IMG/VR virus record: IMGVR_UViG_3300047325_000048 | Coordinates: 1 to 41,142 of that record | DNA length: 41,142 nt | DNA from: a virus | Reading direction: 5' to 3' (one strand) | The notes under the pieces: generated by a model | What the model saw: the letters and a program-made list of their open reading frames with translations, nothing else | What the model was told of the DNA's origin: nothing | Database searches by the model: none | Position numbers and translations under genes: made by a program | Part shown: positions 1-37,600 of the stretch, one piece after another | Numbering within the stretch: position 1 is the stretch's first letter | Layout of the letters: each line of letters opens with the position of its first letter

Positions 1-197
1 CAGCGCCCCACAACGAACAGGTGCTTCTTTACTGCCCTGATCTTGGCGTTGAAACTAACCGCGCACGTATTGAACTAGGTTATGCAAGCAGAGGCTACCG
101 AAACGCCGTGCGTAGCACCATGAGCTATCATTCTTGGGCAACGCATTGGATGCCTTTACCAGTACCGCCAATCTCTCAACCGGGAGACACCAAATGA
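1..197 (+). CDS. DUF551-like protein, 3' part (5' part at 41022-41142)
   Basis: This frame is open from the first base and stops at TGA 195-197. It ends in a WATHWMPLPVPP segment, which matches the C-terminal signature of DUF551 phage proteins (THWMPLPEPP). No start codon is present; the codon phase requires two bases from before the window. Joined to the end of the window it forms a 105-residue protein with no stop at the join. The stop overlaps the ATG of the next gene (ATGA at 194-197), so it is the head of a tight rightward operon of small early genes. DUF551 has no established function. The family call rests on the C-terminal motif alone. Confidence 0.75.
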   Translation, partial: APHNEQVLLYCPDLGVETNRARIELGYASRGYRNAVRSTMSYHSWATHWMPLPVPPISQPGDTK

Positions 198-490
198 GCA
201 TCACCTATGCGGCCATTCCAAACGAAATTGCCGGTCTGCGTCTTTGCAGGATCAGGGGTGAAGAACTGATATTGTGTGAGCGCGTGCTGTTCCACGGCGG
301 GGCCGGTGCGGTTGATGTGACGCTTCGCCGCGCGGCGCTCTTCGGCCAAGTTGGGCCGGTTGGAGAGACGGGCGATTATTGGGCTGACATGCTCGATAAA
401 AACGGAGACTTGTTTGATACGATCAAGCTTGACCGTAGCACATATAACAGTCTCAAAAACCGTTGGATGCGCTGCAGAGTGGAGGTTTAG
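194..490 (+). CDS. Small phage protein of unknown function (98 aa)
   Basis: I do not recognise a family. The start chosen is ATG 194, which overlaps the previous stop as ATGA; an in-frame ATG at 134 lies inside the upstream gene and is less likely. The protein begins MSITYAAIPNEIAG and looks globular, with two Cys and no membrane segment. The next gene starts 3 bp after its stop. The junction shares the bases CAAATGAGC with three other junctions in this operon. It is probably an accessory early gene. Confidence 0.6.
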   Translation: MSITYAAIPNEIAGLRLCRIRGEELILCERVLFHGGAGAVDVTLRRAALFGQVGPVGETGDYWADMLDKNGDLFDTIKLDRSTYNSLKNRWMRCRVEV

Positions 491-493
491 GAA

Positions 494-694
494 ATGAGCG
501 ATGACCCGATGGATACGCCGCTGCCATGTGATGTGCAGATCAACCGCATAACCTTCAAGAAAGGCGTTAGCCTCCGCACTCTCGTTGAGGCTGCCGCCCG
601 GTGGCAAGCTGATGCTGCCTCCGCTTTTATCGAGAAGCACAATATTGATCCCAAAGCGTTTCACGATTTTCTTGGAAAGGTGACCTACAAATGA
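494..694 (+). CDS. Small phage protein of unknown function (66 aa)
   Basis: A short soluble protein beginning MSDDPMDTPLPCDVQINRIT, with a predicted helical C-terminal half (LRTLVEAAARWQADAASAFI). A purine-rich GGAGG lies at 481-485, about 8 bases before the ATG. It overlaps the next gene by 4 bp (ATGA). No family recognised. Its place in an unbroken run of overlapping genes is the main support for it being coding. Confidence 0.6.
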   Translation: MSDDPMDTPLPCDVQINRITFKKGVSLRTLVEAAARWQADAASAFIEKHNIDPKAFHDFLGKVTYK

Positions 695-951
695 GCATCC
701 TCAACGACTTGCGCGACCGCGCTGCGCGAATGTGCCATGGCCGCGTAGTATTTTGCCATGTCCTTCTTGACGCAGCAACCGACCGCATCAAGGCGCTTGA
801 GGCCGAAAACGCGAAGTTGCGTGAAACACTTTCGGCTTGCGCGAAAGCGGCGGGCGCTTCTGTTTTCCCTGACTGCACGCTCGAATTTATGGCGTTCATT
901 CCGGAAGAAATAAGACTTGCAATCGCCAAAACGAAAGGATCAGACAAATGA
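691..951 (+). CDS. Small coiled-coil protein of unknown function (86 aa)
   Basis: The central stretch (DRIKALEAENAKLRETL, about residues 31-47) has leucine-zipper spacing and probably forms a short coiled coil, so the protein may dimerise. The N-terminus (SILNDLRDRAARMCHGR) is basic. It starts at an ATGA overlap with the previous gene and ends in another with the next. No catalytic motif is visible and no family is recognised. Confidence 0.6.
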   Translation: MSILNDLRDRAARMCHGRVVFCHVLLDAATDRIKALEAENAKLRETLSACAKAAGASVFPDCTLEFMAFIPEEIRLAIAKTKGSDK

Positions 952-1127
952 GCGATGTTGACCCTGATCTGGTCGAGTTGGCGAAACTTGAGGCTACAGA
1001 GCTTCTTAACCGGCACGGCTTCGACAGCAAGCACCTGACAGTCGAGCAGCAACGGGCGTTCGATCGCGCGCTACGCAGGAGCGTTAAAATCCTGCCTAAT
1101 CCCCTGACAGACGAGGCAAGCAAATGA
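948..1127 (+). CDS. Small protein of unknown function (59 aa)
   Basis: This 59-codon frame fills the gap between two ATGA overlaps (948-951 and 1124-1127). It encodes MSDVDPDLVELAKLEATELL and ends PLTDEASK. The protein is acidic at the N-terminus and mostly helical by eye. No family recognised. The exact fit between the flanking overlaps is good evidence that it is real despite its size. Confidence 0.6.
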   Translation: MSDVDPDLVELAKLEATELLNRHGFDSKHLTVEQQRAFDRALRRSVKILPNPLTDEASK

Positions 1128-1462
1128 GCGACGACAACATTAGGGAGCGGATCACGCTTACCGTTAAGAAGCTCAAGCTTCAGTTGGCGCGGGACAAGCT
1201 GGCAATCGCAAGGAAAGCCACAGACGATGCGCAGGCTAAACCTGACAAACTGAATTTGGACAGAAGGAACGAACTGTTTGACACCACCGCAATCCACCAG
1301 GCCGTTGCCGACGCCATCGAGGCCGCCGGCCATACGGTTGTTTGGGTGGATACACCGCAAGGTTGGCTACCAACCTTCGTCGCGGGCACCATCACGCCTG
1401 ATCGCATAGTTGCAAATACAATTACGTCCGACAGGATCGTACAGCGCCGTGGAAGGCCTTAA
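1124..1462 (+). CDS. Protein of unknown function, last gene of the rightward small-gene run (112 aa)
   Basis: It starts in an ATGA overlap. The first half is Lys/Arg-rich and helical (LTVKKLKLQLARDKLAIARK, residues 12-31), typical of a nucleic-acid-binding or coiled region. The C-terminus carries two near-identical units, TITPDRIVA and TITSDRIVQ, of the kind seen in phage structural and fibre proteins. No family recognised. After it comes the 615-bp non-coding att region. Confidence 0.55.
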   Translation: MSDDNIRERITLTVKKLKLQLARDKLAIARKATDDAQAKPDKLNLDRRNELFDTTAIHQAVADAIEAAGHTVVWVDTPQGWLPTFVAGTITPDRIVANTITSDRIVQRRGRP

Positions 1463-1568
1463 AACTGGCGGTGGTACAAAAACGGCGAAGAAGATGCCAG
1501 TTGATAGGAGGGAATGACGATCGCTTGCTCCGCTATCCCTATCTTCTTCTTTCTCAAGGCCCACGCCC

Positions 1569-1683
1569 GGGACATCCCCTGAGCGGGACATCCGGGACAC
1601 CCCTAAAGGGGTATGTTCCGTTTGTCCCGTTCCGGAGGAGGGATGCAATGTCCCGTTTGTTTCGATTGTCCCTGTCATGTCCC
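1569..1683. repeat. Seven GGGACA/TGTCCC repeats, three forward then four inverted
   Basis: Copies of GGGACA lie at 1569-1574, 1585-1590 and 1594-1599, and copies of the complement TGTCCC at 1623-1628, 1649-1654, 1667-1672 and 1678-1683. Six of the seven extend to CGGGACA. A small hairpin (ACCCC-taaa-GGGGT, 1599-1612) lies between the two groups. The arrangement suggests a multi-site binding region such as iterons, an operator cluster or a recombination enhancer. The bound protein is unknown. Confidence 0.55.
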
Positions 1684-1702
1684 GTCGTCTCGACCATTTG
1701 TT

Positions 1703-1726
1703 GTGCTCCTGATTTCGTAGGAGCAC
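1703..1726. other. Perfect 8-bp inverted repeat (hairpin)
   Basis: GTGCTCCT (1703-1710) is followed by an 8-base loop and AGGAGCAC (1719-1726). There is no T-run after it on either strand, so it is not a standard intrinsic terminator. It lies between the CGGGACA repeats and attP. Otherwise the stretch 1463-2077 holds only the sites listed separately; no credible gene was seen. Confidence 0.5.
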
Positions 1727-1754
1727 CTACGCAAACGCTAAACGGCCAGTCAAT

Positions 1755-1783
1755 ACGACAAATAACACTGGATTATTTGTCGT
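1755..1783. other. Perfect 11-bp inverted repeat (hairpin)
   Basis: ACGACAAATAA (1755-1765), a 7-base spacer, and TTATTTGTCGT (1773-1783). The arms are perfect, with an AT-rich inner part. It lies about 190 bp to the left of the attP core. It could be a dyad site for the excisionase or a host factor, or an RNA hairpin ending leftward or rightward transcripts. There is no adjacent T-run. Confidence 0.5.
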
Positions 1784-1878
1784 CAGAACCAAGAAGCGTT
1801 TGGAAAAATTGGGGGCCATATTTTTTGTGAAATATCGCCAGACAACGGCCTGCGCGGGACTGTTGCCGCCCGTCAAAA

Positions 1879-2083
1879 GTTTCTCACTTTGCAAAATCAC
1901 TAGGTATAGAGTGGCCCTAAAACCCACTTTTAAATTGAGCAACCCGTTGAAAAATTGAAAAAATCACCCGACTTTTAATCGAATGGCCGTGGGTTCGACC
2001 CCCACCGGGCTCACCATATTTTCAAAGGGTTACGAGCAACCCCGCGAAAGTTTCTCACTTTTATTAAATTTGGTTTCTCACTT
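1879..2083. repeat. Three GTTTCTCACTT direct repeats flanking attP (integrase arm-type sites)
   Basis: The 11-mer GTTTCTCACTT occurs exactly at 1879-1889, 2050-2060 and 2073-2083, all in the same orientation: one copy left and two copies right of the tRNA-derived core. The third overlaps the last codons of the integrase gene. Tyrosine recombinases of temperate phages bind short arm-type direct repeats on both sides of the core, and these repeats fit that role. Assignment is by position and repetition only. Confidence 0.65.
1970..2016 (+). other. attP: attP core: 3' part of a tRNA-Lys(UUU) gene
   Basis: The segment contains a tRNA 3' half: anticodon loop CTTTTAA (anticodon TTT), T-arm GTGGG-TTCGACC-CCCAC, acceptor strand CGGGCTC, then ACCA ending at 2016. 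There is no 5' half, so it is not a working tRNA gene by itself. Temperate phages commonly carry the 3' end of their target tRNA so that integration restores it. It lies 61 bp from the integrase stop. The exact core boundary cannot be set without the host attB. Confidence 0.85.
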
Positions 2084-3133
2084 GCCGGTTCCAATGCGTG
2101 CTTTGGGCATCTTCGCCATGCCGCTCTTTGCCAAGGCTTTTTGCTTGGCACCAGCCGTATATAGCTCAACCATTTGCCTGGTCTGATGACCGGTAATGGC
2201 CTGCACCTGGGCATCCGAAGCCCCCGCCTCAGCTAGCCGGGAGGCCGATGAGTGGCGTAACCCGTGGAAATGCACGTCCCCCGACAACCCAAGTTTTGCG
2301 CGGGTCGCAGCATAGACATGCGCGAAGTGATCTTTTTTCCAGCTATGGCCGTCTGCCCGGGTGCAGATCGTCACCGCCGTTTTGGGGGTCGCATCGAGCG
2401 CAGCCTTCAAAACCGGGTGAACAGGGATAACCAGAGTTTTGGCTTTTTTCCCGGCCTTGGACTGGCGCAGGGTGATCGTGGCACCGTTATAGGCCGACCA
2501 GGGCAGCTTGATCACGTCACCGCGCCGCTGCGCGGTATACAGCCCCAAAAGAACAGGGAGGGCCATACGACCAGCAAGGGGACTGGTAAAAGCCTCGATT
2601 TCAGCATCTGACCATACGCGATACGATTCGCCAGTCCGCAATTTGTCGATGCCAGCCGCCACGTTGATCGTGCAATACCGGCGATCGCGCCCCCAAACCA
2701 AAAGCACTGACATCACGGTGACAAAATAATTTGCCTTGCCCGGAGTGGCCGCCAGTTCGTCTTGGCGGCGCAGCACCCAGTCCCTCGGCAGATCAGCCAC
2801 AGGCAGATTGCCGTATCGGGGCAGAAGCCATTCGAGCACCCAAAGATAACTGGCCCGCGTGGCGGCGGCCATTTGTTTAAATTTGCCGCTTTTTTTGTAA
2901 TCCTCGATTAGAGCGCGCAGGGAACCTGGGATAGCGGTTTCGGGCTGGGATGTCGGGATTTTGCCAGCTTCAGATGCCCGGTGGATGGCGTTATAGGCTT
3001 CAAGAAAAGCCGGGGTGCCTGGGTCGCCTTTGATGCGCGTGACCCGCCCGTCGCGCCGATAATAGCCATATAATCGGCCTTTGGCGCGTTTCAGGTTAAG
3101 ATAAGGCAGCACGACCGATCCCATCAGCGGCAT
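2078..3133 (-). CDS. int: Tyrosine-family site-specific integrase
   Basis: This 351-residue protein should catalyse recombination between attP and a host tRNA-Lys gene. The catalytic set of tyrosine recombinases is visible: Arg203 in AQRRGD, a Lys near 226-230, HGLRH (His290, Arg293), GH at 315-316 and Tyr325 in VELYT. The region around 70-160 is the usual SAM-like core-binding domain, and the basic N-terminus (LNLKRAKGRLYGYYRRDGR) suits arm-type DNA binding. ATG 3133 is used; a second ATG lies three codons on. Its start overlaps the excisionase-like gene by 38 bp, and its stop lies in the third arm repeat next to attP. Confidence 0.95.
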   Translation of the reverse strand: MPLMGSVVLPYLNLKRAKGRLYGYYRRDGRVTRIKGDPGTPAFLEAYNAIHRASEAGKIPTSQPETAIPGSLRALIEDYKKSGKFKQMAAATRASYLWVLEWLLPRYGNLPVADLPRDWVLRRQDELAATPGKANYFVTVMSVLLVWGRDRRYCTINVAAGIDKLRTGESYRVWSDAEIEAFTSPLAGRMALPVLLGLYTAQRRGDVIKLPWSAYNGATITLRQSKAGKKAKTLVIPVHPVLKAALDATPKTAVTICTRADGHSWKKDHFAHVYAATRAKLGLSGDVHFHGLRHSSASRLAEAGASDAQVQAITGHQTRQMVELYTAGAKQKALAKSGMAKMPKARIGTGK

Positions 3134-3335
3134 CCCATGGGTTGATTTCCCCAGATGCTGGCGTCTTTCCAGCTAGTCGGTCAAGCCATGCGTCGAGGTC
3201 CTCTTTCATCCATACCAGGCGTTTTTCTCCGATTCGCACAGGTTTTGGGCCGTCGCGCCGGAGCATAGTGGTGCCGATGCCACAATATTCGGCCGCTGCG
3301 TCCACGGGCATTGCGCGGGGCCAACGGTCACCCAC
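3096..3335 (-). CDS. Excisionase-like small DNA-binding protein (AlpA/MerR-type HTH)
   Basis: It carries a short winged-helix/HTH segment, MPVDAAAEYCGIGTTMLRR, followed by the typical RIGEKRLVWMKEDLDAWLD wing, as in AlpA and phage Xis proteins. Such proteins bend DNA at attP/attR and favour excision. I chose GTG 3335 because GGAGG (complement of 3345-3349) sits 9 bases upstream; a TTG at 3362 would give a longer form inside the upstream gene. It overlaps int and the 74-aa gene upstream, so all three are probably translated together. Confidence 0.75.
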   Translation of the reverse strand: MGDRWPRAMPVDAAAEYCGIGTTMLRRDGPKPVRIGEKRLVWMKEDLDAWLDRLAGKTPASGEINPWDAADGIGRAALS

Positions 3336-3552
3336 CTTTATAATCCTCCGGGTCTTCGCCAATCGCGGTCATTGCACCGCGCCAAGCCGCGACATGCTCA
3401 GCCTCATGTTCTTCGTCGTCCCAATTCGACGGCATCGCGTCCTCGATCAGCGACCGGATTGTGGCCTCCAGCGCCTCCACTCGCTCGCGCAGTTTGCAGT
3501 CACCCACGCCCGGCAGCTGCTCCTGGCATTGGAAAGTGCGGCATTGGGTCAT
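3328..3552 (-). CDS. Small acidic protein of unknown function (74 aa)
   Basis: The protein starts MTQCRTFQCQEQLPG, with an early CxxxxC pair, then a short coiled-coil-like stretch (LRERVEALEATIRSLIED) and an acidic tail (NWDDEEHEAEHVAAW). The ribosome binding site is strong: on the minus strand AGGAGGG precedes the ATG by 5-6 bases. It lies between the exonuclease and the excisionase-like gene in the leftward operon. No family recognised. Confidence 0.65.
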   Translation of the reverse strand: MTQCRTFQCQEQLPGVGDCKLRERVEALEATIRSLIEDAMPSNWDDEEHEAEHVAAWRGAMTAIGEDPEDYKGG

Positions 3553-3564
3553 CGCGCCCTCCTG

Positions 3565-4266
3565 TTAACCCGCATCGATCAGCATGCCGCGTTGGTCCAG
3601 ACGCGTGAGGTAGCCGGCCCATCCGTCGTCGGCCTCTTCGATTTCCTCAAAGAACCCGGTGGCACGCAGCTTTGCCTCAAGCTGGGATTTTTCGTAGCTG
3701 AATTGGTCCAGAGCTTTTTGCAGTTTTGCGATAAAATCATCATCGCGGTGAATGCGTGCGATCTTGGACGGCAGGCGGGGATGGTAGGAGTACATGTCGA
3801 TGAACTCCAGATCACAAACCAGCATCTGGCCCTGCCGCTGGCAGTGGTATTTAGTGCCGAACCCATCGAACCAATAAGACAGGTGGGTGTCGGCCTGGGG
3901 GCATTTTAACTCGATGCCTCCCGGAATGCCCTTTAGGAGGCGGTCTGGGCTGGCGCCGTACTGACCGTCATCCGAAAGCGCGAATCCAATGGACAACGTT
4001 TCCACGCCTTTTTCGATCTCATAAGCGAGCGCCGCCTGTGGCTCCAGCAGCTTGCCGCGCTCTACGGCGTGCAGATTGCCAATTTCATGGATCGTCTCGC
4101 CCAGCAGCTTTTCAGCGATCAGACGCAGCATGTAGGGCCTGGACTGCTTGCTATATTCACACGTGGTTGGCGTGATAATTTTGTCGAACTCGCTGGCCGT
4201 GGCAATGCCGCGGCGTGCCGCGTACCAAGCATCCGTGCCTTGCTCACATTCTATAATTCTAACCAT
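3565..4266 (-). CDS. YqaJ-type (lambda exonuclease-like) viral recombinase nuclease
   Basis: Predicted 5'-3' dsDNA exonuclease of the PD-(D/E)xK fold that resects ends for the annealing protein encoded just upstream. Visible marks are the N-terminal QGTDAWYAARRG, ERGKLLEPQA (Glu69, Glu75) and the core GASPDRLL followed by GGIELKCP (Asp108, Glu119, Lys121). Its length, 233 aa, is normal for the family. ATG 4266 overlaps the end of the erf-like gene by 8 bp, so the exonuclease and annealing protein are likely made together, as in lambda Red and other two-component phage recombination systems. Confidence 0.92.
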   Translation of the reverse strand: MVRIIECEQGTDAWYAARRGIATASEFDKIITPTTCEYSKQSRPYMLRLIAEKLLGETIHEIGNLHAVERGKLLEPQAALAYEIEKGVETLSIGFALSDDGQYGASPDRLLKGIPGGIELKCPQADTHLSYWFDGFGTKYHCQRQGQMLVCDLEFIDMYSYHPRLPSKIARIHRDDDFIAKLQKALDQFSYEKSQLEAKLRATGFFEEIEEADDGWAGYLTRLDQRGMLIDAG

Positions 4267-5029
4267 TGGCGCTGGCCTCCATTTCAGAAAGTTTCTTTTT
4301 CAGCGAACCGAGGGCGCGCGGGTATTCGGACATTGATAATTCATCGAGGGTATCGACCCCGCAGTATTTCAAAAACCGGCCGGTGTCCGCGTTCGTCCGT
4401 TGCATCAGTTCGATCAGCGTTTCTTTCTGCGTCTCGGTAATGGTGCGCGTGCCGACGCGTGCGGCGTTGCCGTCATTATCCTCGTTCGTCAGCGTGACGT
4501 TGAAAATCATACACGTGAGGTATCGGCGCAGATAGGAGACGGATGAGCCGAGGGCCTGGATCGGCGTTTTGTTGGCGTTGCCGCCGCTGCCGACGTTATC
4601 CAGCCCGCCGGTGAGCATGTAGGTTTCGCTATGCCCGCGAACATGGCCGACCTTGCAGGTAACGCTTACGGAGCCTTTTTCAGCTTCGTTTTGGTTGAAT
4701 GAAAGCGACAGGCCGAACTTGGTATAAACCGGCCGGATCGCAGCATCGATGGCTTCCAGCTTTGCATAACGCGTCTTGGTGTGCTTGTTCTCCGCATCGC
4801 GCACCACCGGCAGCATTTCGGCCTGTGCGGCGGTCATTGCCTGCTCAAACGCTATCTTTGCCTCGTCGGCCAACACTTTTCGCTGCATCTCAAACAGCAT
4901 CTCCAGCCGCGAGATATCGACATTCGGATCAAACGCCGCGCGCTCGATGATGTTCAACAGCGCGCCGGCATTTGAGGTGGGCAGCGCGGTAGGCAATGCC
5001 GCTTCTGGAATTTTCGTGATCTCGTTCAT
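4259..5029 (-). CDS. erf: Erf-family single-strand annealing protein
   Basis: The 256-residue protein carries the ERF core: KTRYAKLEAIDAAIRPVYTK at about 84-103, followed by GLSLSF and a conserved LGSSVSYLRRYL segment. ERF proteins bind single-stranded DNA and promote annealing in phage recombination and genome circularisation. The C-terminal part (about 195-256) is helical and less conserved. It pairs with the downstream YqaJ nuclease. ATG 5029 overlaps the stop of a 36-aa gene (ATGA), and its own stop overlaps the nuclease start. Confidence 0.92.
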   Translation of the reverse strand: MNEITKIPEAALPTALPTSNAGALLNIIERAAFDPNVDISRLEMLFEMQRKVLADEAKIAFEQAMTAAQAEMLPVVRDAENKHTKTRYAKLEAIDAAIRPVYTKFGLSLSFNQNEAEKGSVSVTCKVGHVRGHSETYMLTGGLDNVGSGGNANKTPIQALGSSVSYLRRYLTCMIFNVTLTNEDNDGNAARVGTRTITETQKETLIELMQRTNADTGRFLKYCGVDTLDELSMSEYPRALGSLKKKLSEMEASANG

Positions 5030-5136
5030 CGCCTTTCCTTCCTGCGTTTTTCGAGTGCGGCCTCAAGCTCTGCGATCAGCAGCGCGATTTCGGTTTCGGT
5101 TTCCGGCGACATAATGGGTGCAACAACGCATCTCAT
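5026..5136 (-). CDS. Very small charged protein (36 aa)
   Basis: This frame fits exactly between two ATGA overlaps: its ATG overlaps the stop of the 88-aa gene, and its stop overlaps the erf start. It encodes MRCVVAPIM then SPETETEIALLIAELEAALE and a basic end (KRRKERR), a likely single amphipathic helix. It is too small to assign. The double overlap supports translation, perhaps serving mainly to couple erf translation to the upstream gene. Confidence 0.5.
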   Translation of the reverse strand: MRCVVAPIMSPETETEIALLIAELEAALEKRRKERR

Positions 5137-5399
5137 CGATCTTCCCTTTCGTATTCGCGTTCATCTTCCTCATGGTTTTCCTCGATCGACGTTGTCCAAG
5201 CCTCAAGCTCGGCCTCGGTCGGTTCGATTTGAATGCCGTTTGCGGTGACACGGATAATTTCGACCTCCGGCGGCTCAGCAGGCTGACCGCCGCAGTCGTA
5301 TGTCGGGCCTTGTTCGGGACGGCCTGGACGGTAAACGTATTCCACCGTGACCTCGGTTTCGTCTTCGTCGTGACGGTTTAGAGTTGTGATGTGGGGCAT
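5133..5399 (-). CDS. Acidic protein of unknown function (88 aa)
   Basis: It begins MPHITTLNRHDEDETEV and is acidic throughout, ending in a Glu/Arg-rich helix (IEENHEEDEREYEREDR). AAAGGG lies about 8 bases upstream of ATG 5399. The stop overlaps the next small gene. If the cassette at 5418-6132 is removed in silico, its ATG directly follows the rebuilt stop codon of the gene now at 6099-6554, so the two were probably adjacent operon partners. No family recognised. Confidence 0.65.
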   Translation of the reverse strand: MPHITTLNRHDEDETEVTVEYVYRPGRPEQGPTYDCGGQPAEPPEVEIIRVTANGIQIEPTEAELEAWTTSIEENHEEDEREYEREDR

Positions 5400-5417
5400 T
5401 TACGCGGCCCTTTCGTT

Positions 5418-5436
5418 ATGAAAAACCTCATTAAAC
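5418..5436. repeat. 19-bp direct repeat, copy 1 (3' boundary of cassette A)
   Basis: ATGAAAAACCTCATTAAAC on the plus strand, identical to 6114-6132 over 19 bases, with mismatches on both sides. On the minus strand it spans the stop codon (TAA, 5431-5433) of the cysteine-repeat gene. See the cassette finding. Confidence 0.9.
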
Positions 5437-6102
5437 TGCGCCAGCCAGCTTCTTGATATCGGCTAAAGCGTTGGCGTCGCTCTCGTAAAATTTTCCGGGA
5501 TTTATTCTGTACCCGCTGGCCTCATAAATCAGTTGAGCGGCGAGCAGCGTATTATGAAAACGTTCCAGTGCGTATCCAGCTTCACCAGCCAAATGCACCA
5601 CCCAACCAGCGCGGCAATGCGTGGTGTTGCAAGTATGCCAAGTCGACATGTCAAGAGCGTCTGGTGTAGAAACTGCCGCGTAAACACGCTGGTGAATGTT
5701 GTCGATTTTCGGAATTACGGGAGGCGTGAAATCGCCTTGATTTTTGGATTTGTCCGAGCAGTCCGAGCAGTCCGAGCAGTCCGAGCAGCGCGAGCAGCCC
5801 GAGCAGCGCGAGCAGCGCGAGCAGCGCGAGCAGCCCGAGCAGTCCGAGCAGTCCGAGCAGTCCGAGCAGTCCGAGCAGTCCGAGCAGCCCGAGCAGCGCG
5901 AGCAGCCCGAGCAGTCCGAGCAGTCCGAGCAGTCCGAGCAGCGCGAGCAGTACGAGCAGCCCGAGCAGCCCGAGCAGTCCGAGCAGTTTATACAATTCTT
6001 GCAATCAATAAGGCTATCCAGCGCTTTTTGTGCGGCTTCGGTCGAGCCGAAATGCTCCACCGAGCATTTATTTCCGTTTGCATCTTCAATCCAAGTTGTC
6101 AT
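5431..6102 (-). CDS. Cys-Ser-x repeat protein with conserved WHxCxTTHCxAGW C-terminal domain
   Basis: The 223-residue protein has three parts: a short head (1-32), a region of 26 consecutive Cys-Ser-x triplets (x mostly D, G or R) preceded by CKNCIN, and a globular tail of about 100 residues. The tail carries VSTPDALDMSTWHTCNTTHC followed by RAGWVVHLAGEAG. The same domain ends the protein at 39503-39937. I have no functional name for it; the fixed Cys/His set suggests metal binding or disulfides. GGAGA precedes ATG 6102. Exact 19-bp direct repeats flank the gene, and the insertion altered the end of the gene upstream, so it looks like a mobile accessory cassette. Confidence 0.75.
   Translation of the reverse strand: MTTWIEDANGNKCSVEHFGSTEAAQKALDSLIDCKNCINCSDCSGCSGCSYCSRCSDCSDCSDCSGCSRCSGCSDCSDCSDCSDCSDCSGCSRCSRCSRCSGCSRCSDCSDCSDCSDKSKNQGDFTPPVIPKIDNIHQRVYAAVSTPDALDMSTWHTCNTTHCRAGWVVHLAGEAGYALERFHNTLLAAQLIYEASGYRINPGKFYESDANALADIKKLAGAV
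5752..5985 (-). repeat. 26 tandem 9-bp repeats encoding Cys-Ser-x
   Basis: The minus strand reads TGC-TCG/AGC-like-x in 26 successive 9-bp units with only the third codon varying (GAC, GGC/GGG, CGC, TAC). All six frames are open across it, which creates spurious ORFs on the plus strand (EQSEQ and AVRAVRA patterns). Because units are multiples of three, gain or loss by slippage would change protein length without frameshift. Confidence 0.9.
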
Positions 6103-6554
6103 GCCGCTTCTCCATGAAAAACCTCATTAAACCGTGTCAACCGCTCGCGCTCGTACTGTGGCCGGCGGCGGTTTGCCTCAGCTGCGATCTTCGGAATGTT
6201 GCGGCGCAGGAGAAGGAGCTTCCGCAATCCGGCCAGCCAGCGTTCGTGTGCGGCTTGGCGCAGTTTGATTTGCTGCTCTCGATAATCATCCCAATCCGCC
6301 AGCGATTTTTCCCAACCGTCCCACGGCATGCCGCGGTTCGCGAGATGTGCGCCGTCGCATGGGCGATCTTCGAAATGGATCTGGATTTCGTAGCGAACCT
6401 CGGCCCAGGCAGCGCGCGGGCGCCCGTTGGCAGCGTACCATTCTATCAGCTCGAACGCTTCCTCGCGGTCCATTTCGTAGAGGGAAAGGTCCGGGGCATC
6501 GTTATCGTCGGGCGCACCCATGTAGGGGCCAGCGCATTGCGAGAGCAGGTTCAT
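6099..6554 (-). CDS. Phage protein of unknown function with a C-terminal end replaced by cassette insertion (151 aa)
   Basis: ATG 6554 is preferred over an upstream in-frame start because GGGGG sits 5 bases before it on the minus strand and its ATG overlaps the stop of the membrane-protein gene. The protein has an acidic N-terminal part (GAPDDNDAPDLSLYEMD) and a helical, Arg-rich second half (LRKLLLLRRNIPKIAAEANR). The last codons read FNEVFH-GEAA-stop. Without the inserted cassette they would read FNEVFH-NERAA-stop, directly followed by the ATG of the 5133-5399 gene. No family recognised. Confidence 0.65.
   Translation of the reverse strand: MNLLSQCAGPYMGAPDDNDAPDLSLYEMDREEAFELIEWYAANGRPRAAWAEVRYEIQIHFEDRPCDGAHLANRGMPWDGWEKSLADWDDYREQQIKLRQAAHERWLAGLRKLLLLRRNIPKIAAEANRRRPQYERERLTRFNEVFHGEAA
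6114..6132. repeat. 19-bp direct repeat, copy 2 (5' boundary of cassette A)
   Basis: Identical to 5418-5436. On the minus strand it encodes the end of the 6099-6554 protein (RFNEVFH) and ends 11 bases before the start codon of the cysteine-repeat gene, so the cassette begins with that gene's ribosome binding site. Confidence 0.9.
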
Positions 6555-6709
6555 TGAATCCCCCTGATGACAGCGCGAAAAACGAGAAACATATCCAAGC
6601 CGACGGCGAGCAGCACTGCGATCGCGCAGTACGTCGCCGCCCAATAGAGCCAGTCGTATTTGGGTGGCTCAGGGCGAGAGGGTTTCGCCATTTTGAATGA
6701 CAGCGCCAT
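6551..6709 (-). CDS. Small single-pass membrane protein (52 aa)
   Basis: ATG 6709 overlaps the upstream stop (TGATG). After a Pro-rich head (MAKPSRPEPPKYDW) there is one hydrophobic helix, WAATYCAIAVLLAVGLDMFL, and a short basic tail. It is in the early leftward operon rather than the lysis module, so it could be a superinfection-exclusion or other membrane-active protein, but nothing proves this. Confidence 0.6.
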   Translation of the reverse strand: MALSFKMAKPSRPEPPKYDWLYWAATYCAIAVLLAVGLDMFLVFRAVIRGIQ

Positions 6710-6900
6710 CACGCCGCCTCCGGGCCGGGCTCGAACTCGCATGGCGCGGTATCGAGGGGACGGCGAGGGAAAGGAATCACGTTGCTCGGCCGGGCGTGGC
6801 GCGCTTGGTATGCGCGCTCGTGGATCTCGGCCAGGCGCGCTTGGAGCGAGACAATGCTTGCTTGGGCTTCGGCGGTGGTGCGGGGTGGGAGGCGCATCAA
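6709..6900 (-). CDS. Small protein of unknown function (63 aa)
   Basis: It begins MMRLPPRTTAEAQASIVSLQ, has a helical first half likely to form a short coiled coil (SIVSLQARLAEIHERAYQAR) and a Pro-rich, acidic tail. Both ends overlap neighbours in the leftward operon (ATGA upstream, TGATG downstream). No family recognised. Confidence 0.6.
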   Translation of the reverse strand: MMRLPPRTTAEAQASIVSLQARLAEIHERAYQARHARPSNVIPFPRRPLDTAPCEFEPGPEAA

Positions 6901-7142
6901 ACGTCTCCCACGCTGCAGAGGTGATCCAGCCCGGCGCGGGAGATCACGAACGTTACATTGCGGGTGATGCCGCGCTTGTGGCGAGGCAGACGCTCCACCT
7001 GCTCGATGGTGACGGTAAACTGGCCGCGGGGGCCGGGGCGCACTTCGAGGCGGGTGTTGCTGATCGTGCCGTCAACCGTGGCGGCTGCGATTGCGTGCGC
7101 CGGCGGCGTGGCGCGGAGAAGGCGAGTTGTGTGGGTTGGCAT
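6897..7142 (-). CDS. First gene of the leftward early operon, unknown function (81 aa)
   Basis: The protein is basic (MPTHTTRLLRATPPAHAIAA, later ERLPRHKRGITRNVTF) and likely a small beta-rich domain; a role in DNA or RNA binding is possible but not shown. Its ribosome binding site (GAGG, 5 bases before ATG 7142) lies inside an 11-bp hairpin, and the operator sites for the immunity repressor lie just upstream. It is therefore the first gene read from the leftward early promoter region. Confidence 0.6.
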   Translation of the reverse strand: MPTHTTRLLRATPPAHAIAAATVDGTISNTRLEVRPGPRGQFTVTIEQVERLPRHKRGITRNVTFVISRAGLDHLCSVGDV

Positions 7143-7171
7143 GGTGGCCTCACTGGTTTGGTGAGGTCACC
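7143..7171 (-). promoter_or_regulatory. Leader hairpin covering the ribosome binding site of the 6897-7142 gene
   Basis: Arms 7143-7153 and 7161-7171 pair over 11 bp with one mismatch and a 7-base loop. In the leftward transcript the 3' arm contains the GAGG ribosome binding site and ends one base before the ATG. When folded it should hide that site, so it may restrain translation of the early operon. Confidence 0.55.
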
Positions 7172-7173
7172 AT

Positions 7174-7234
7174 CGCTTAGTAGCGCTAAGCAGTCAAGTA
7201 AAAAGTTTAGCGGTACTAAGTTTTTCGCTTAGCG
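7174..7234. promoter_or_regulatory. Left operator region of the immunity switch
   Basis: Two dyads share the form CGCTTAG-N5-CTAAGCG: 7174-7191 (CGCTTAG-tagcg-CTAAGC) and 7205-7221 (GTTTAG-cggta-CTAAGT), centred about 30 bp apart. A further half-site, CGCTTAG, lies at 7226-7232. They sit upstream of the leftward early operon and match the site at 8102-8120, so they are likely bound by the repressor or the Cro-like protein. The promoter itself cannot be placed confidently; a TTGACT reads leftward in the same stretch. Confidence 0.7.
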
Positions 7235-7260
7235 TATGCTTTCCTGTCTATGCGCGCGAA

Positions 7261-7590
7261 TTATTTGCCGTTGTTACCCTCATCAGAGCCGGAGTCCCCG
7301 CTTTCGTTTGCCGGCGGTGTAGTTTCAATTTCGCCGCCGCCTGGACCTTCTGGTGTGTATTGGACGGAGCTTCCATCCGGCGCCACTCCTTCAAAGCCGC
7401 CTCCGAATGTGGGGTTGGCATAGGTTTGACCTGATGGCGTCTGCAAAATTCCCGCTCCGCCGAATGGATCGGGGGTATATGAATACCCTCCACCGGTAAC
7501 CGTCGGTTGTGGATCGTCTTGGGCGAGAGCTGCGTGGCTAAAAAATGTCGCTGCGGCCGCAAAAAATGTTCTTGCAATGTTCCAGTGCAT
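7261..7590 (-). CDS. Exported Gly/Pro-rich protein, probable lysogenic-conversion gene (109 aa)
   Basis: The N-terminus is a clear Sec signal peptide: short basic start, hydrophobic FFAAAATFFSHAALA, and a probable cleavage after ALA at residue 23. The mature part is low-complexity and rich in Gly, Pro, Thr and Glu (GGGYSYTPDPFGGAG, TPEGPGGGEIETTPP). It sits between the operators and the repressor in the same direction as the repressor, where morons expressed from the prophage are common. The ribosome binding site is weak. No family recognised; a role in the host envelope is inference. Confidence 0.6.
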   Translation of the reverse strand: MHWNIARTFFAAAATFFSHAALAQDDPQPTVTGGGYSYTPDPFGGAGILQTPSGQTYANPTFGGGFEGVAPDGSSVQYTPEGPGGGEIETTPPANESGDSGSDEGNNGK

Positions 7591-7698
7591 TTAGGATAAT
7601 GTTCCTACATTTTTAGGCTTTACGGTAACGTTTTGGATACCTAAGGTTCGCCCGTTACTTATTGATAAATATAGAGGTTGCGTATGGATTTGAGGGCC

Positions 7699-8043
7699 TC
7701 ACCCCTGCTTTGCCTTGTTAGAAGGGATGACGAGATTCCCTATGATGTGCTTCGCCAAGATCTGACGTTCGGCGCTGGGGAGCATCTCCAGGAAGTCGAG
7801 CCAAGCGAGGAGGTCAGGATCGTCAACGAGCTTGCCGCGATATGGCGCGCCGGGGGCAGGCTGCGGGCCAGTTTCAATGTTCAAGACGCGCTTGAGCGTG
7901 TCCATATTTTCCCCTGTGGGCCGGGTCGCGTTCAGCTCCCATTGGGCGACGGCTCCCTTACTGACATCAACGAGTTTCGCGAGCGCCGCCTGAGACAGCT
8001 TTAAAGCTTTCCGCTTTTGGCGGATGAGATCACCGATATCCAT
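7699..8043 (-). CDS. Xre-family immunity repressor (short, no peptidase domain)
   Basis: Residues 1-58 form a classic HTH_XRE domain: DIGDLIRQKRKALKLSQAAL, then VDVSKGAVAQWELNATRP and LKRVLNI. At 114 residues it lacks the S24 autopeptidase domain of lambda CI; the tail (DPDLLAWLDFLEMLPSAER) is a short helical segment that may serve for dimerisation. It is divergent from the YdaS/Cro-like gene, with the operator 8102-8120 between them and further sites near 7174. It therefore most likely keeps the prophage silent, and induction cannot rest on CI-type self-cleavage. Confidence 0.88.
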   Translation of the reverse strand: MDIGDLIRQKRKALKLSQAALAKLVDVSKGAVAQWELNATRPTGENMDTLKRVLNIETGPQPAPGAPYRGKLVDDPDLLAWLDFLEMLPSAERQILAKHIIGNLVIPSNKAKQG

Positions 8044-8055
8044 GGCCTAAAAATG

Positions 8056-8074
8056 CTCTAATTTTTTCTTAGAG
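8056..8074. promoter_or_regulatory. AT-rich dyad upstream of the repressor gene
   Basis: CTCTAA (8056-8061), 7-base spacer, TTAGAG (8069-8074). The inner TTAG/CTAA core resembles the operator half-site, but the orientation is reversed and the spacing differs. It lies 12 bp before the repressor start, over its probable promoter, and could be a second regulator site. Confidence 0.35.
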
Positions 8075-8101
8075 GCACTGAGCAATTTTGCTTGCTCGGC
8101 G

Positions 8102-8120
8102 CGCTTAGTGTTGCTAAGCG
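8102..8120. promoter_or_regulatory. Right operator, perfect 7-bp dyad
   Basis: CGCTTAG (8102-8108), spacer tgttg, CTAAGCG (8114-8120). It is the best copy of the operator consensus and ends 8 bp before the start of the Cro-like gene, between the two divergent regulators. Confidence 0.75.
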
Positions 8121-8128
8121 TGGAAACT

Positions 8129-8338
8129 ATGGATGCCATGGAAACCATTCGGGCCTCTAGGGGTCTTGGAGCTAAAATTACCCGCGAGCTTGGTCTGAGC
8201 CGGGGGGCCGTTTCGCAATGGCCCAGAGTCCCGGCTGAACGGGTCATTGATGTCGAGCGCATTACAGGTATTCCGCGCGAGGAGTTGCGGCCGGACATCT
8301 ACCGCGACGAACGCTCGCAGACGGGAGCGGCAGAATGA
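8129..8338 (+). CDS. YdaS/Cro-like HTH regulator
   Basis: The protein (69 aa from ATG 8129) has the YdaS-type HTH: ASRGLGAKITRELGLSRGAV, SQWPRVPAERVIDVERITG and the family ending IPREELRPDIY. In lambdoid prophages proteins of this kind take the place of Cro and act opposite the repressor. A GTG at 8108 would start inside the operator, and a second ATG lies at 8138; neither start has a strong ribosome binding site. It is the first gene of the rightward early operon. The toxin-antitoxin label sometimes given to YdaS is not supported here because no YdaT-like partner follows. Confidence 0.85.
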   Translation: MDAMETIRASRGLGAKITRELGLSRGAVSQWPRVPAERVIDVERITGIPREELRPDIYRDERSQTGAAE

Positions 8339-8374
8339 TCTTCATGGATTGTCATTCGGCCAAGTGCGGTCTGC

Positions 8375-8947
8375 ATGACGTGCGATGATGGCATCCACGA
8401 GGTCGCCGATGCGCTGGAAGCCGGTTCCGCGCGGCGCCGGCCGTGGTTGCAGGTCGAGAAGGATGTCTTCGCCCGTCTGTGGGCTGACCCAGCCCTGTCC
8501 GTGAATGACATCGCCCAGCGCCTCGGGCGCACGGCCGGCAGCGTCAAATGGCTTCGGCATGACATGGGTTTGCCCTCTCGGGTCGCTCCATTTTTTTTCA
8601 AAAAAATGAACAACCGTGAATTTTGCTTCGCTTTTCCGATTTCGAAGGGTTTTCGGAAACTGCTGGACCGGTCCGATACGCTCATCCAGTGGGTCGAAGA
8701 GGGGAGGGACAATTATGAGCTGGCACGCGCTTTCCACGTTCCTATGGCTGATGTCGTCCGTGCAGTGCGTGGCCTCGGCCTTGTTCGTCCAGGTGAACTG
8801 GAGCCTCAGGTCGAGCAAGCTGTGATGCGTACCTGCTCGGCCTGCTCGAAGCCCTTTGAGGCGACGAAATATCGGTTTCGGTGCGATTCCTGCTTGGACG
8901 CTCACGCCCGATACGATGATCGCGAATGCACGGTAGGTGGCCGATGA
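8375..8947 (+). CDS. DNA-binding protein with two helix-turn-helix segments and a zinc ribbon (190 aa)
   Basis: Three parts are visible. Residues 23-55 (WLQVEKDVFARLWADPALSV, NDIAQRLGRTAGSVKWLRHD) look like a SANT/GcrA-type HTH. A second HTH-like stretch follows (VEEGRDNYELARAFHVPMAD). The C-terminus has CSAC and, 13 residues on, CDSC, a likely zinc ribbon. There is no in-frame start between the preceding stop and ATG 8375. Its place straight after the Cro-like gene suggests an early transcription or replication regulator. A GcrA relationship is possible but weak. Confidence 0.65.
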   Translation: MTCDDGIHEVADALEAGSARRRPWLQVEKDVFARLWADPALSVNDIAQRLGRTAGSVKWLRHDMGLPSRVAPFFFKKMNNREFCFAFPISKGFRKLLDRSDTLIQWVEEGRDNYELARAFHVPMADVVRAVRGLGLVRPGELEPQVEQAVMRTCSACSKPFEATKYRFRCDSCLDAHARYDDRECTVGGR

Positions 8948-9357
8948 GCAATGTCCTTTCATTTCTTCGCCATCGGCCCGGTTATCATAGGCGGCACGTT
9001 GATCCGTTCTATCAAAGCGAGGCGCGGCAAGGTTCTTGGCGCGCTGCGGCAAATGCCTCCCCGCAGTCGATCATTGATGAAATGCAGGCGATCGTGCGCA
9101 TGGCGGGCGAGGATGGCGGGCCGACGATTAAGGGATGCGTGGGTCTTGCTGCGCGCCGGCTCGGCTTAAGCTATACCGAGGCGCACCGGCTCTGGTACGG
9201 CCAACGGCGCGTGATTGCGGCGCACGAGGCGGATACGCTGCGAGGGGCTCGTCATCGGATCCTTGAGGAACGCGCTCGGCGGCTACAGGCGCAGCTTGAT
9301 GTTGTGCATGCACGCATGCGCGCACTCAAGCCGCGGGACGATGAGGCGGCGGCGTGA
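8944..9357 (+). CDS. Early protein with HTH-like centre and C-terminal coiled coil (137 aa)
   Basis: ATG 8944 overlaps the previous stop (ATGA). The N-terminus is Arg/His-rich (FLRHRPGYHRRHVDP), the centre IKGCVGLAARRLGLSYTEAH resembles a helix-turn-helix, and the end (ILEERARRLQAQLDVVHARM) is a strong coiled coil. DNA binding as a dimer is plausible; the family is not recognised. Confidence 0.6.
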   Translation: MSNVLSFLRHRPGYHRRHVDPFYQSEARQGSWRAAANASPQSIIDEMQAIVRMAGEDGGPTIKGCVGLAARRLGLSYTEAHRLWYGQRRVIAAHEADTLRGARHRILEERARRLQAQLDVVHARMRALKPRDDEAAA

Positions 9358-9590
9358 ACATTTTTGCGTGCAGCGTTTGCGGTGCTCCCGCCATGGCGAT
9401 CCGGCCTGGTACGGCGGACGAGACCTGCGAGTTGCTGGGCACGGTGCTGGTGACCAAGCGCGGTGTGCGCACTCTGTCGTGGTGTTTGTCGCATTGGCCG
9501 GCGAGCTGGTCTGCGGTGCCCGAACCTGCGCCCGCGGAAATTGCCCGACATTTTCAACCCAAAGGAATTAATGATGCAGTTGGACATTGA
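9354..9590 (+). CDS. Small Cys-containing protein of unknown function (78 aa)
   Basis: It starts with GTG in a GTGA overlap. The N-terminus FACSVCGAPAM has a CxxC pair; two further Cys (DETCELL, WCLSHW) could complete a zinc site. It is followed, with a 20-bp overlap, by the GapR-like gene. No family recognised. Confidence 0.55.
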   Translation: MNIFACSVCGAPAMAIRPGTADETCELLGTVLVTKRGVRTLSWCLSHWPASWSAVPEPAPAEIARHFQPKGINDAVGH

Positions 9591-9861
9591 GGATGTGACC
9601 GGGCGTGACCCGGCCAATGAGGTCAAAGCGCGGAATATCGCTGGGGAGCGGCTGCGCAGCATTGTGGACCGGATTGAGCGGCTGGAAGAGGAGCGCAAGG
9701 CGCTCGCCCAGGACATCAAGGATATTTACAGCGAGGCGAAATCCGCCGGCTTCGATGTGAAGGTGCTGCGCCAGCTCATCCGCATCCGCAAGCAGGAGCC
9801 GGCCGATGTGGAGACCGAAGAGACTCTCCTCGATGTCTACCGCCGTGCGATTGGCATGTAA
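9571..9861 (+). CDS. GapR-like nucleoid protein (DUF2312 / UPF0335)
   Basis: The 96-residue protein matches the alphaproteobacterial GapR family along its length: RLRSIVDRIERLEEERKALA, DIKDIYSEAKSAGFDVKVLR, QLIRIRKQ and the closing TLLDVYRRAIGM. Host GapR binds overtwisted DNA ahead of replication and transcription and aids topoisomerases. Start ATG 9571 is supported by AAAGGA just upstream. The gene sits beside RusA-like and replication genes, so a role in phage DNA replication or in competing with host GapR is reasonable inference. Confidence 0.9.
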   Translation: MMQLDIEDVTGRDPANEVKARNIAGERLRSIVDRIERLEEERKALAQDIKDIYSEAKSAGFDVKVLRQLIRIRKQEPADVETEETLLDVYRRAIGM

Positions 9862-9862
9862 A

Positions 9863-10267
9863 ATGGCAGATCTCGTGTTTCGCCTGGCCGCGCCGCTGCC
9901 GCTACTGAATGTGCAGTTGCGCCAGCATTTTGCGCAGCGTGGCGCCGCCAAGAAAGACCTGGCGTGGGAAGTGCTTGCCGCACTTGGCCGTGCGCGGCCG
10001 GCTCAGCCGTTGCAGCGCGTCGAGGTGACGATCTGGCGCCACAGCGTTCAGGCACCGGATCAGGATAATTTGGTTGCATCGGCCAAGAGTCTTTTGGATG
10101 TGCTGCAGCCTGCTTCAAAACGTCATCCGTATGGCGTGGGCGTGATTTCTGGCGATGATCCCGCTCGGCTGCGGCTGGCCGTGCATCACGTCAAGGCGAA
10201 ACATCGCACGGACCAGCACACGCTTGTGCGCGTTCGGGCGGTTGAGAGCATGCCGGTGGCGGCATGA
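9863..10267 (+). CDS. RusA-like Holliday-junction resolvase
   Basis: The 134-residue protein has the RusA signature: VEVTIWRHSVQAPDQDNLVA with Asp66 and Asp68, then SAKSLLDVLQP with Lys75 and Asp79, and later GVISGDDPARL. RusA enzymes are dimeric endonucleases that cut four-way junctions during phage replication and recombination. ATG 9863 follows the GapR stop by one base. Some members of the family in phages lack tested activity, so the biochemical role is inferred. Confidence 0.85.
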   Translation: MADLVFRLAAPLPLLNVQLRQHFAQRGAAKKDLAWEVLAALGRARPAQPLQRVEVTIWRHSVQAPDQDNLVASAKSLLDVLQPASKRHPYGVGVISGDDPARLRLAVHHVKAKHRTDQHTLVRVRAVESMPVAA

Positions 10268-10467
10268 GATTCCAGGTGGCCGACATCCAAACAGCGGGTC
10301 AGCGTCCCGCTGCGACGGCCTTTCTCCCTAAGCGCGCAGGCCTGGGTGGTCTTGTGTCCGGTGCGCGGTGGGCAAACCCTGTCGGCCTAAAACAGTTGGG
10401 GAAAGAAGGGTCAACGCATCAACGCATCAACGCATCAGGAGGAACCGGCGATGCCAAGTGGCGATAA
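10264..10467 (+). CDS. Small protein of unknown function (67 aa)
   Basis: It begins at an ATGA overlap (MRFQVADIQTAGQRPAATAF). Its 3' part contains an 8-bp unit repeated three times (tcaacgca, 10411-10434) and also houses the ribosome binding site of the next gene, which it overlaps by 17 bp. Composition is basic with no clear fold. It is less certain than its neighbours. Confidence 0.4.
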   Translation: MRFQVADIQTAGQRPAATAFLPKRAGLGGLVSGARWANPVGLKQLGKEGSTHQRINASGGTGDAKWR

Positions 10468-10684
10468 AAATGCTGCGCACGGCGAGGAACTGCGGCAGAA
10501 ATTGCTCGCGCTGATCTACCACTGCCAGGAGAACCGGCGGCGGTTTCCGCGCGTTGCGACCGTGGCGCGGGCTGTGGGAACGACCGAGGCCGCGATCCAC
10601 TATCAAATCGGGCGCTTGGTTAAGTCCGGTGCGGTGCAGCGCCAGGGCTGTAACGAGGGCAGAAGTTTAAGGATCGCGTCATGA
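10451..10684 (+). CDS. Winged-helix DNA-binding protein (77 aa)
   Basis: A strong AGGAGG precedes ATG 10451. The protein is a compact winged helix: LRQKLLALIYHCQENRRRFP, then VARAVGTTEAAIHYQIGRLV and a wing KSGAVQRQG. It lies directly upstream of the DUF1376 replication gene with an ATGA overlap, so it may regulate the replication operon or help load replication proteins. Confidence 0.7.
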   Translation: MPSGDKNAAHGEELRQKLLALIYHCQENRRRFPRVATVARAVGTTEAAIHYQIGRLVKSGAVQRQGCNEGRSLRIAS

Positions 10685-11571
10685 CCGAATTGCCCGATCC
10701 GCTTACGCCGGCGGAATGCGATCTGCGCCATTACGATTGGATGCCGATCACAATTACCGTGCTGAAAGGCTCGCGGTCTTGGATGCGTTGCAAGCGCAAC
10801 CCGGCGCTGGCGTTTTATCTCATCAACCTCTGGACCGCATCCTGGCATCAGGTGCCCGCCGCCTCGCTTGAGGATGACGATGAATATCTGTGTGATGTGG
10901 CGCAATGCGATCCGAAGGTGTGGCCGAAAGTTCGTCAGTTCGTAATTGCCGGCTTTGAGAAGTGCAGCGATGGGCGCTTGTACCATCAATATGTTGCGCG
11001 TGAGGCCAACAAGGCGTGGTTGCTGCTGCTCGGCCAGCGCGCACGCACCGAAGCTGCGACGGCAGCAAGGAAGGCAAAGCAGAAGAACGTTGCGACGGAA
11101 CAAGGTGGCGGACCGCAACAACGTGACGATAACGTGACGTTGAACGTTAAGAACAACGTAACGTCAGACGTGACGACACCGTTACGTAGTCCACCAGACC
11201 AGACCAGACCAGACCAGACCAAGAAAGAAGAAAGTATTTGCGCCGCTCCCGCGCCGCCCACAACCCAGGTACGGGGTTCTCGGCTTCCGCCTGAGTGGCA
11301 ACCTAACCCGGATGGGCGCACGCTCTGCCTCGAACGCGGGCTCAACTTGCGGGATACGCTGGCGAATTTTCGGGACTATTGGCACGCCAAGGCTGGGCAG
11401 AATGCGGTCAAGTTGGATTGGGATGCGACTTGGCGCAATTGGTGCCGCAGTCAGAAAACCCCAGCAATTCAGCCAAAATTCAGGAACGGATTCGCGCAGT
11501 TGATGGCTGAGGATATGGAACCTTCCGGCGAATTCGGGAATTTTTTGGAGATCGAACATGTCCGCAATTAG
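10681..11571 (+). CDS. DUF1376 replication-region protein
   Basis: Residues 1-120 match DUF1376: PLTPAECDLRHYDWMPITIT, FYLINLWTASWHQVPAASLE-DDD and CSDGRLYHQYVAREANKAW. Such proteins are common in phage replication operons. A low-complexity linker (about 120-200; NNVT and PDQTRPDQT repeats) separates this from a C-terminal domain (LPPEWQPNPDG to FRDYWHAKAG), as in replication initiators of the lambda O/DnaT kind. The linker DNA holds iteron-like ACGTGACG repeats. It is probably the initiator, with the next gene a loader; this is inference from layout. Confidence 0.7.
   Translation: MTELPDPLTPAECDLRHYDWMPITITVLKGSRSWMRCKRNPALAFYLINLWTASWHQVPAASLEDDDEYLCDVAQCDPKVWPKVRQFVIAGFEKCSDGRLYHQYVAREANKAWLLLLGQRARTEAATAARKAKQKNVATEQGGGPQQRDDNVTLNVKNNVTSDVTTPLRSPPDQTRPDQTKKEESICAAPAPPTTQVRGSRLPPEWQPNPDGRTLCLERGLNLRDTLANFRDYWHAKAGQNAVKLDWDATWRNWCRSQKTPAIQPKFRNGFAQLMAEDMEPSGEFGNFLEIEHVRN
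11121..11187. repeat. Iteron-like ACGTGACG cluster inside the DUF1376 gene, possible origin
   Basis: ACGTGACG lies at 11121-11128, 11132-11139 and 11168-11175; the variant ACGTAACG at 11156-11163 and, inverted, at 11180-11187. A run of five CCAGA units (11194-11218) follows. In lambda the origin iterons lie inside the initiator gene O; the same arrangement here suggests the phage origin. No experiment or host site supports it yet. Confidence 0.5.
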
Positions 11572-12085
11572 CCAGACCGACTTTCAGACGATCACGCAAT
11601 GGTTGCGCAGCCTCGGTGTTTTGTGTGCCGGCACGATGACGGCGGAAGATGCGAAGATGCGATGTGCCGCTTATGCCGATCTGGTGTCGTCGGAGTTTCC
11701 TGTGACGGCCTTCACGCGCAAAAGCCTTGAGCACGTCGCGTCGAAGTGCAAGTTTTTCCCCAGCTACGGCGAGCTCGTTCAACACCTGGGCGAAATCTGG
11801 CGTGAGAATCTTCCGGCGCACGTTCGGCTTGGTGGTTCTCTGGATGTCCCAAGCTTGGCAGCGCCCAAATACGAGCCCAGCGAGGATGAGGTGGCTGATG
11901 TGAGAGCCAAGGTCGACGCCTTCAAGGCCGAGATGGCGGCAAAGCCGTCCCCGATTGGGGAGGCAAAAATCAAACCCCGTTACCTCTCCAAATTGGAGAT
12001 TGCGCTCGTCTCGCCGCCTGATGTTCTGGCGATCCGGCCGGATCTTCGTGAGGCTCTGCGGCTGCACAAGGAGTCTGCGCAATGA
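11558..12085 (+). CDS. Replication-operon protein, possible helicase loader (175 aa)
   Basis: The start ATG 11558 has GGAG 8 bases upstream and overlaps the previous gene by 14 bp. The protein has an N-terminal helical domain (DFQTITQWLRSLGVLCAGTM, then FPVTAFTRKSLEHVASKCKF-FPSYGEL), of the type found in lambda P-like loaders and related replication partners, and a Lys/Glu-rich C-terminal half. There is no Walker motif, so it is not a DnaC-type ATPase. The loader role is suggested mainly by its position after the presumed initiator. Confidence 0.5.
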   Translation: MSAISQTDFQTITQWLRSLGVLCAGTMTAEDAKMRCAAYADLVSSEFPVTAFTRKSLEHVASKCKFFPSYGELVQHLGEIWRENLPAHVRLGGSLDVPSLAAPKYEPSEDEVADVRAKVDAFKAEMAAKPSPIGEAKIKPRYLSKLEIALVSPPDVLAIRPDLREALRLHKESAQ

Positions 12086-14231: not shown

Positions 14232-14273
14232 TCCCGGCGTGGCGGCGCGCGTGATGATGGCTAAAATCAAGCC

Positions 14274-18420: not shown

Positions 18421-18428
18421 GGTGATAA

Positions 18429-19130: not shown

Positions 19131-19152
19131 TCGCACCTGAAAGGTATTTAAA

Positions 19153-22164: not shown

Positions 22165-22167
22165 GGC

Positions 22168-36160: not shown

Positions 36161-36201
36161 TGGCGTGGCCCGGCTGGGCGTTGGCTTGATACGATCCGGC
36201 C

Positions 36202-37533: not shown

Positions 37534-37600
37534 GAGCGGCGTGGCGACCCATTTTCCCGATTGATATTCTGCCGTCATCCTAACGCATGAGGTGGTGGCT

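Follow-up and report, generated by a model that had tools for sequence, protein, structure and literature searches.

The mosaicism of phage genomes, gene by gene, is a long-standing question, because traces of the exchanges are missing at most junctions. In mycobacteriophages, gp67 and gp68 of Island3 have a 3' end of 60 bp in common, and in LRRHood a 1.35-kb insertion lies between 29-bp repeats; both cases were attributed by Pope et al. to general recombination at short common sequences (PMC3029335). Illegitimate recombination helped by one-sided homology was also reported (PMC2884548; PMC2327257), in the latter as Red-type homeologous recombination. Start-associated sequences, another type of short repeat at gene boundaries, are known from Cluster K mycobacteriophages (PMC3203893). 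Here, a gene bracketed by direct repeats is described in the window, by which we refer to the whole analyzed stretch of 41,142 bases, a complete IMG/VR record (IMGVR_UViG_3300047325_000048). This gene, gene A, is probably an accessory ('moron'-like) gene that was gained by general phage recombination using the 3' end of its upstream neighbor (UG). The features of the locus are as follows:

6099 to 6554, minus strand: UG, 151 aa, function unassigned, ending in RFNEVFHGEAA and a stop
6114 to 6132, minus strand: repeat copy 1, at the 3' end of UG, coding for FNEVFH and followed by GGAGAAGCGGCATGA
5431 to 6102, minus strand: gene A, 223 aa, with a GGAG motif, the sole gene between the repeat copies; it consists of an N-cap (TWIEDANGNKCSVEHFGS), tandem CSx tripeptides (9-bp repeats) and a C-terminal WHTCNTTHCRAGW domain
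5418 to 5436, minus strand: repeat copy 2, which includes the stop of gene A and reads LAQFNEVFHNERAA and a stop in the frame of UG
5133 to 5399, minus strand: downstream gene, 88 aa
5027 to 5113, minus strand: 28-codon ORF just upstream of erf, shared with the phage contig L001 between its ATG and the following ATGA and unrelated beyond
4259 to 5029, minus strand: Erf-type single-strand annealing protein
3565 to 4266, minus strand: YqaJ-type exonuclease

The last four bases of UG overlap the ATG of gene A, and the TAA stop of gene A sits within the downstream repeat copy. No relatives of the 88-aa gene were found in 26 phage records, searched without a positive control. The gene at 2078-3133, judged from its translation, is presumably a phage integrase.

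The two copies of the exact 19-bp repeat (GTTTAATGAGGTTTTTCAT, minus strand) start 696 bp apart and have 677 bp between them. When up to three mismatches were allowed, the 19-mer had just two matches within the window against 0.02 expected, and the longest repeats in 30 Markov simulations of the window reached 14-17 bp. When the flanks were joined by a script, they read YERERLTRFNEVFHNERAA and a stop, followed immediately by ATGCCCCAC, that is, FNEVFHNERAA-stop and then the ATG of the 88-aa gene. The first-pass annotation, which had described exact repeats around one gene with its ribosome binding site, the NERAA reading of the joined flanks and a scar at a gene junction that leaves the operon translated, was reproduced in all these points. 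It was also borne out in that no transposase, nuclease, att site or other mobility domain was recognized in the gene A segment, and in that the phage encodes Erf and an exonuclease; both genes lie near gene A in the same direction, and their recombination activity is predicted from the genes.

The sole close relative of UG that was found belongs to L001 and has 73% protein identity. The final 36 bp of UG are identical in both phages, GGAGAAGCGGCATGA included, and the background identity is 72% at the nucleotide level; an identical run as long as 36 bp arose in 35 of 20,000 codon shuffles. In L001 this ending stands before an unrelated 76-aa gene, in a single repeat copy and without a Cys gene. 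The two phages have UG in common from the ATG as far as the following gene's ATGA, and the 28-codon ORF has 86% identity across 93 bp (BLAST); besides these two, no further DNA match to the L001 phage was found in window positions 1-20000 or 21143-41142. Between UG and the 28-codon ORF, the window has the Cys gene and the 88-aa gene, and L001 has several others, including a DUF6745 repeat protein (2468-3832, with a long GQLAHQLR-type repeat) in the corresponding variable region. The relation between the window and L001 is one of gene-boundary mosaicism.

According to the first-pass annotation, the ending FNEVFHGEAA came from cassette bases. This claim does not hold, because the identical 36-bp ending precedes an unrelated gene in L001; on the simplest reading of the sequences, the GEAA tail is a natural end of UG. 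That L001 formerly held the cassette and then lost it is possible but less simple. The same ending bears on a target-site duplication, by which an enzyme acting in trans would cut gene junctions with a stagger of about 16-19 bp and insert family genes there. Copy 1 and its GGAGAAGCGGCATGA are native to UG in L001, where no family gene follows, so a duplication of 19 bp would leave the presence of the 15-bp tail in the cassette to coincidence; on this ground it was set aside as the main reading. The predicted empty site, in which the 5133 gene would directly follow a UG ending in NERAA, was found neither in viral contigs or phages nor in genome searches for UG. Likewise, no phage was found in which the NERAA form of UG precedes the 88-aa gene, and the GEAA form followed by gene A was found only in the window. 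Two other candidates were discarded during these searches: an NEVFH-like stretch in L027 was a chance match and not a gene end, and a weak UG match in G030 (L047) lacked a sensible ORF.

UG thus has two end forms, FNEVFHGEAA-stop at copy 1, as in L001, and FNEVFHNERAA-stop at copy 2, before the 88-aa gene. Beyond the 19 bp, the flanks of the two copies are weakly similar (40 nt at 78%). To the left of copy 2, eight of nine bases agree with the UG end of L001 (null frequency 0.0035), and the extension reads in frame L-A-Q-FNEVFH against L-A-R-FNEVFH in L001. This similarity of copy 2 to the UG end past the 19 bp is only suggestive. It points, without proof, to an origin of copy 2 in a second UG allele, whose tail would come from a recipient phage and still stand ahead of the 88-aa gene. 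The resemblance would also be expected if UG, gene A and a second UG' had once stood in tandem and a deletion had left only the last codons of UG' (FNEVFHNERAA-stop) before the 88-aa gene. Such an origin would fit the reading of copy 2 in the UG frame (LAQFNEVFHNERAA and a stop), the presence of a UG-like gene downstream of a Cys gene in L039/L046 and the tandem duplications of the gene A family in L051 and L123, but two UG copies were not seen in any phage and one step more is needed than in recombination between alleles, and we regard it as unlikely. The UG relative in L039/L046 is distant (33%), and the order at this locus is Cys gene, another gene, UG-like gene, nuclease-like gene and RecT-like gene; therefore the Cys gene and the UG-like gene travel in the same early operon.

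A second case is present in the same window, with the following features:

39947 to 39964, minus strand: copy 1 of an 18-bp repeat (TGAGTTCACCTAACCCCC), starting with the stop codon of the gene that precedes gene B
39503 to 39937, minus strand: gene B, of the same family as gene A, with LTSVGG repeats in its N-terminal half and the WHKCKTTHCVAGW domain (phrog_31265, 3e-11)
39498 to 39515, minus strand: copy 2 of the 18-bp repeat, supplying the TAA stop of gene B

In the whole window, non-tandem repeats of 18 bp or longer flank genes only at these two places, with one family member inside the 19-bp pair and the other inside the 18-bp pair. The empty form of the gene B junction would read FPAAVA at the end of the upstream gene, then TGAGTTCACCTAACCCCC and TGGCAATC; the 18-bp repeat has sharp ends, with no similarity past 18 bp. 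In L048 and L049, which contain relatives of the gene upstream of gene B, the 18-mer is absent at the gene end and the neighbors are different. In L075 (2597-3246), a RecT/Bet-like gene and the family gene next to it both end in GAGGTGCAGTCGTGA followed by AGA (18 bp, EVQS-stop); the shared end overlaps the GTG start of the following gene and the repeat again ends sharply. In its empty form, the Bet-like gene would end in KGEVQS-stop directly before the VKTDDDR gene. Microcystis phage Mae-JY09 was considered as an empty site for L075 and was uninformative, since only the Bet/RecT-like core is common. Flanking repeats of 16 bp were found in L126 and L071. In these two related phages, the leader of the family gene resembles that of the next gene, better within a phage than between the phages, as if the leaders were homogenized within each phage.

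Two family genes with exact 19- and 18-bp flanking repeats in one phage, the 18 bp of L075, the 16 bp of L126 and L071, and the sharp ends in gene B and L075 are what a target-site duplication would produce. Against it, the positions of the repeats coincide exactly with stop/start junctions, at which selection or microhomology would be enough; an associated enzyme was not recognized, the repeat is missing at most family members, and a constant repeat length with defined element ends was not found across the insertions. Together with the native tail in L001, these points make a target-site duplication quite improbable. For the preferred recombination between UG alleles, the 36-bp UG end retained in L001 before an unrelated gene, the sharing of UG and the 28-codon ORF as single genes, the suggestive extension of copy 2, the stop that gene A takes from the repeat, the common early operon in L039/L046, the recombination genes near family members and the mycobacteriophage precedents count in favor; the failure to find either parent and the 18-bp repeats of gene B and L075 without extension, which look cleaner than allele homology predicts, count against it.

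Genes A and B belong to a large phage family defined by a repeat domain and a conserved WHTC-TTHCxAGW domain. Gene A matched the profiles phrog_31265 (5e-25) and phrog_15341 (1e-21), both of unknown function. A search with its C-terminal domain gave 32 viral loci and five genomic loci, and the family profile matched 199 IMG/VR stretches, 80 of them taken into the analysis. The repeats that accompany the C-terminal domain differ between members and are of CSx, pentapeptide, GDAQV or LTSVGG type; pentapeptides are fused to this same domain in L042, L029 and L075. Gene A itself has CSx repeats rather than those of the pentapeptide-repeat family (PF00805, A(D/N)LxX), with no Pfam match, and neither gene A nor gene B matched a family in NCBIfam or PADLOC; a defense function was considered and dropped for lack of a PADLOC match. 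The structural model of gene A is of good confidence in the C-terminal domain, predicted as helical, and of low confidence in the CSx part; no significant fold match was found in the PDB. Among 385 alphaproteobacterial genomes, the single match was the Kaistia genome already known as a locus. Two family gene copies lie about 37 kb apart on one bacterial contig of Xanthomonas sp. NCPPB 1128 (L042 and L043), probably as two prophages. The family genes are often in early operons near recombinases: the neighbors among 137 ORFs included seven ERF, five YqaJ and two RecT genes, and repressor-type genes as well. The family may be an often-traded cargo.

Most family members have no flanking repeats; where these are present around single genes, they are 12-19 bp long. 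The first-pass annotation had also considered that the repeats might be absent around homologues, which is true of the window's 19-mer, but some homologues own different flanking repeats. Repeats of at least 12 bp flanked 15 of 97 family genes against 15 of 955 other ORFs in the pooled data, a significant excess that comes partly from tandem paralogues in L051, L067 and L123 and is set against control counts diluted by spurious ORFs from mechanical ORF calling. The excess was also significant at the new loci alone (11/65 against 12/494) and after removal of tandem paralogues (10/90 against 14/951). With same-strand controls and the window excluded, it was weak (6/83 against 7/435, p = 0.0095), and with repeats of at least 13 bp it was not significant. 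Family-wide enrichment of flanking repeats is thus suggestive. L051 (1863-3801) and L067, which are on one contig, have tandem family paralogues with pentapeptide repeats and a common leader, AACAAAGGACCTAAGAAAATGAAA.

Short repeats at such positions could also be functional or convergent junction signals, such as a ribosome site or a stop/start overlap, and not scars of recombination. Identical leaders, like start-associated sequences, stand ahead of several genes in L029 (4127, 4340, 4860) and L062 (1579-4842), start-associated sequences are known elsewhere (PMC3203893), and a 13-mer at the L022 junctions recurs at an unrelated junction in L130, so that the 13-bp case of L022 may be convergent. 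The window's 19-mer, however, falls in coding sequence ahead of the ribosome site, with the GGAG of gene A outside it, and is found at no other gene junction of the window; the gene B repeat is a different one. For gene A, such a signal is very unlikely.

The preferred recombination between UG alleles would involve a donor, in which UG-GEAA was followed by a gene of the gene A family, and a recipient, in which UG-NERAA preceded the 88-aa gene. The joint on the left would be homologous, within UG, and that on the right illegitimate, with the 3' end of gene A placed just before the recipient's UG tail. This tail would have been retained for what it provided, a stop for gene A and start signals for the 88-aa gene. 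The 19-bp repeat would then reflect the homology of two UG alleles and not a target-site duplication, and the nearby-encoded Erf and exonuclease would be the likely actors. Deletion of gene A through the same repeat would be possible in principle. On the whole, the observations of the first-pass annotation stand and its interpretation is kept in part.

Two family genes in one phage have kept readable junction repeats, and L075 is a third independent case. An as yet undescribed gene-trading process in temperate phages, which puts single family genes at operon junctions with 16-19 bp duplicated, is a long shot; if true, it would keep the upstream stop, the cargo start, the cargo stop and the downstream start intact. 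The family is big enough to test gene-end recombination against a dedicated mover as the spreader.

Compared with the known systems, the locus is like gene 68 of Island3 and its relative Brujita (Cluster I), where an extra gene carries at its 3' end a second copy of about 50-60 bp from the end of the gene before it, the sequence is single in a related phage that lacks the extra gene, and general recombination at short shared sequences was proposed (PMC3029335). The repeat of the window is shorter (19 bp), and whereas a near-identical single-copy phage is known for Island3, the counterpart here is a UG of 73% identity in a phage that is otherwise different. In LRRHood, too, a segment is bracketed by exact direct repeats at gene ends with one copy in relatives, but that segment has four genes, including a repressor, whereas the window has a single repeat-protein gene. 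The 19-bp repeats likewise bracket gene A at gene ends; the remaining defining feature of the Island3/LRRHood kind, an exact empty site, was not found for gene A. The start-associated sequences of Cluster K (PMC3203893) are alike as short repeats at gene boundaries and differ as leaders before many genes, whereas the 19-mer is a gene end that occurs only twice. Short-homology and homology-facilitated illegitimate recombination also has one homologous and one illegitimate joint, repeats of less than 30 bp and a plausible role for annealing proteins; it was demonstrated in laboratory systems elsewhere, and in the window it is only inferred. As far as can be seen from these comparisons, the gain of gene A is of a kind already described in mycobacteriophages and appears to work alike.
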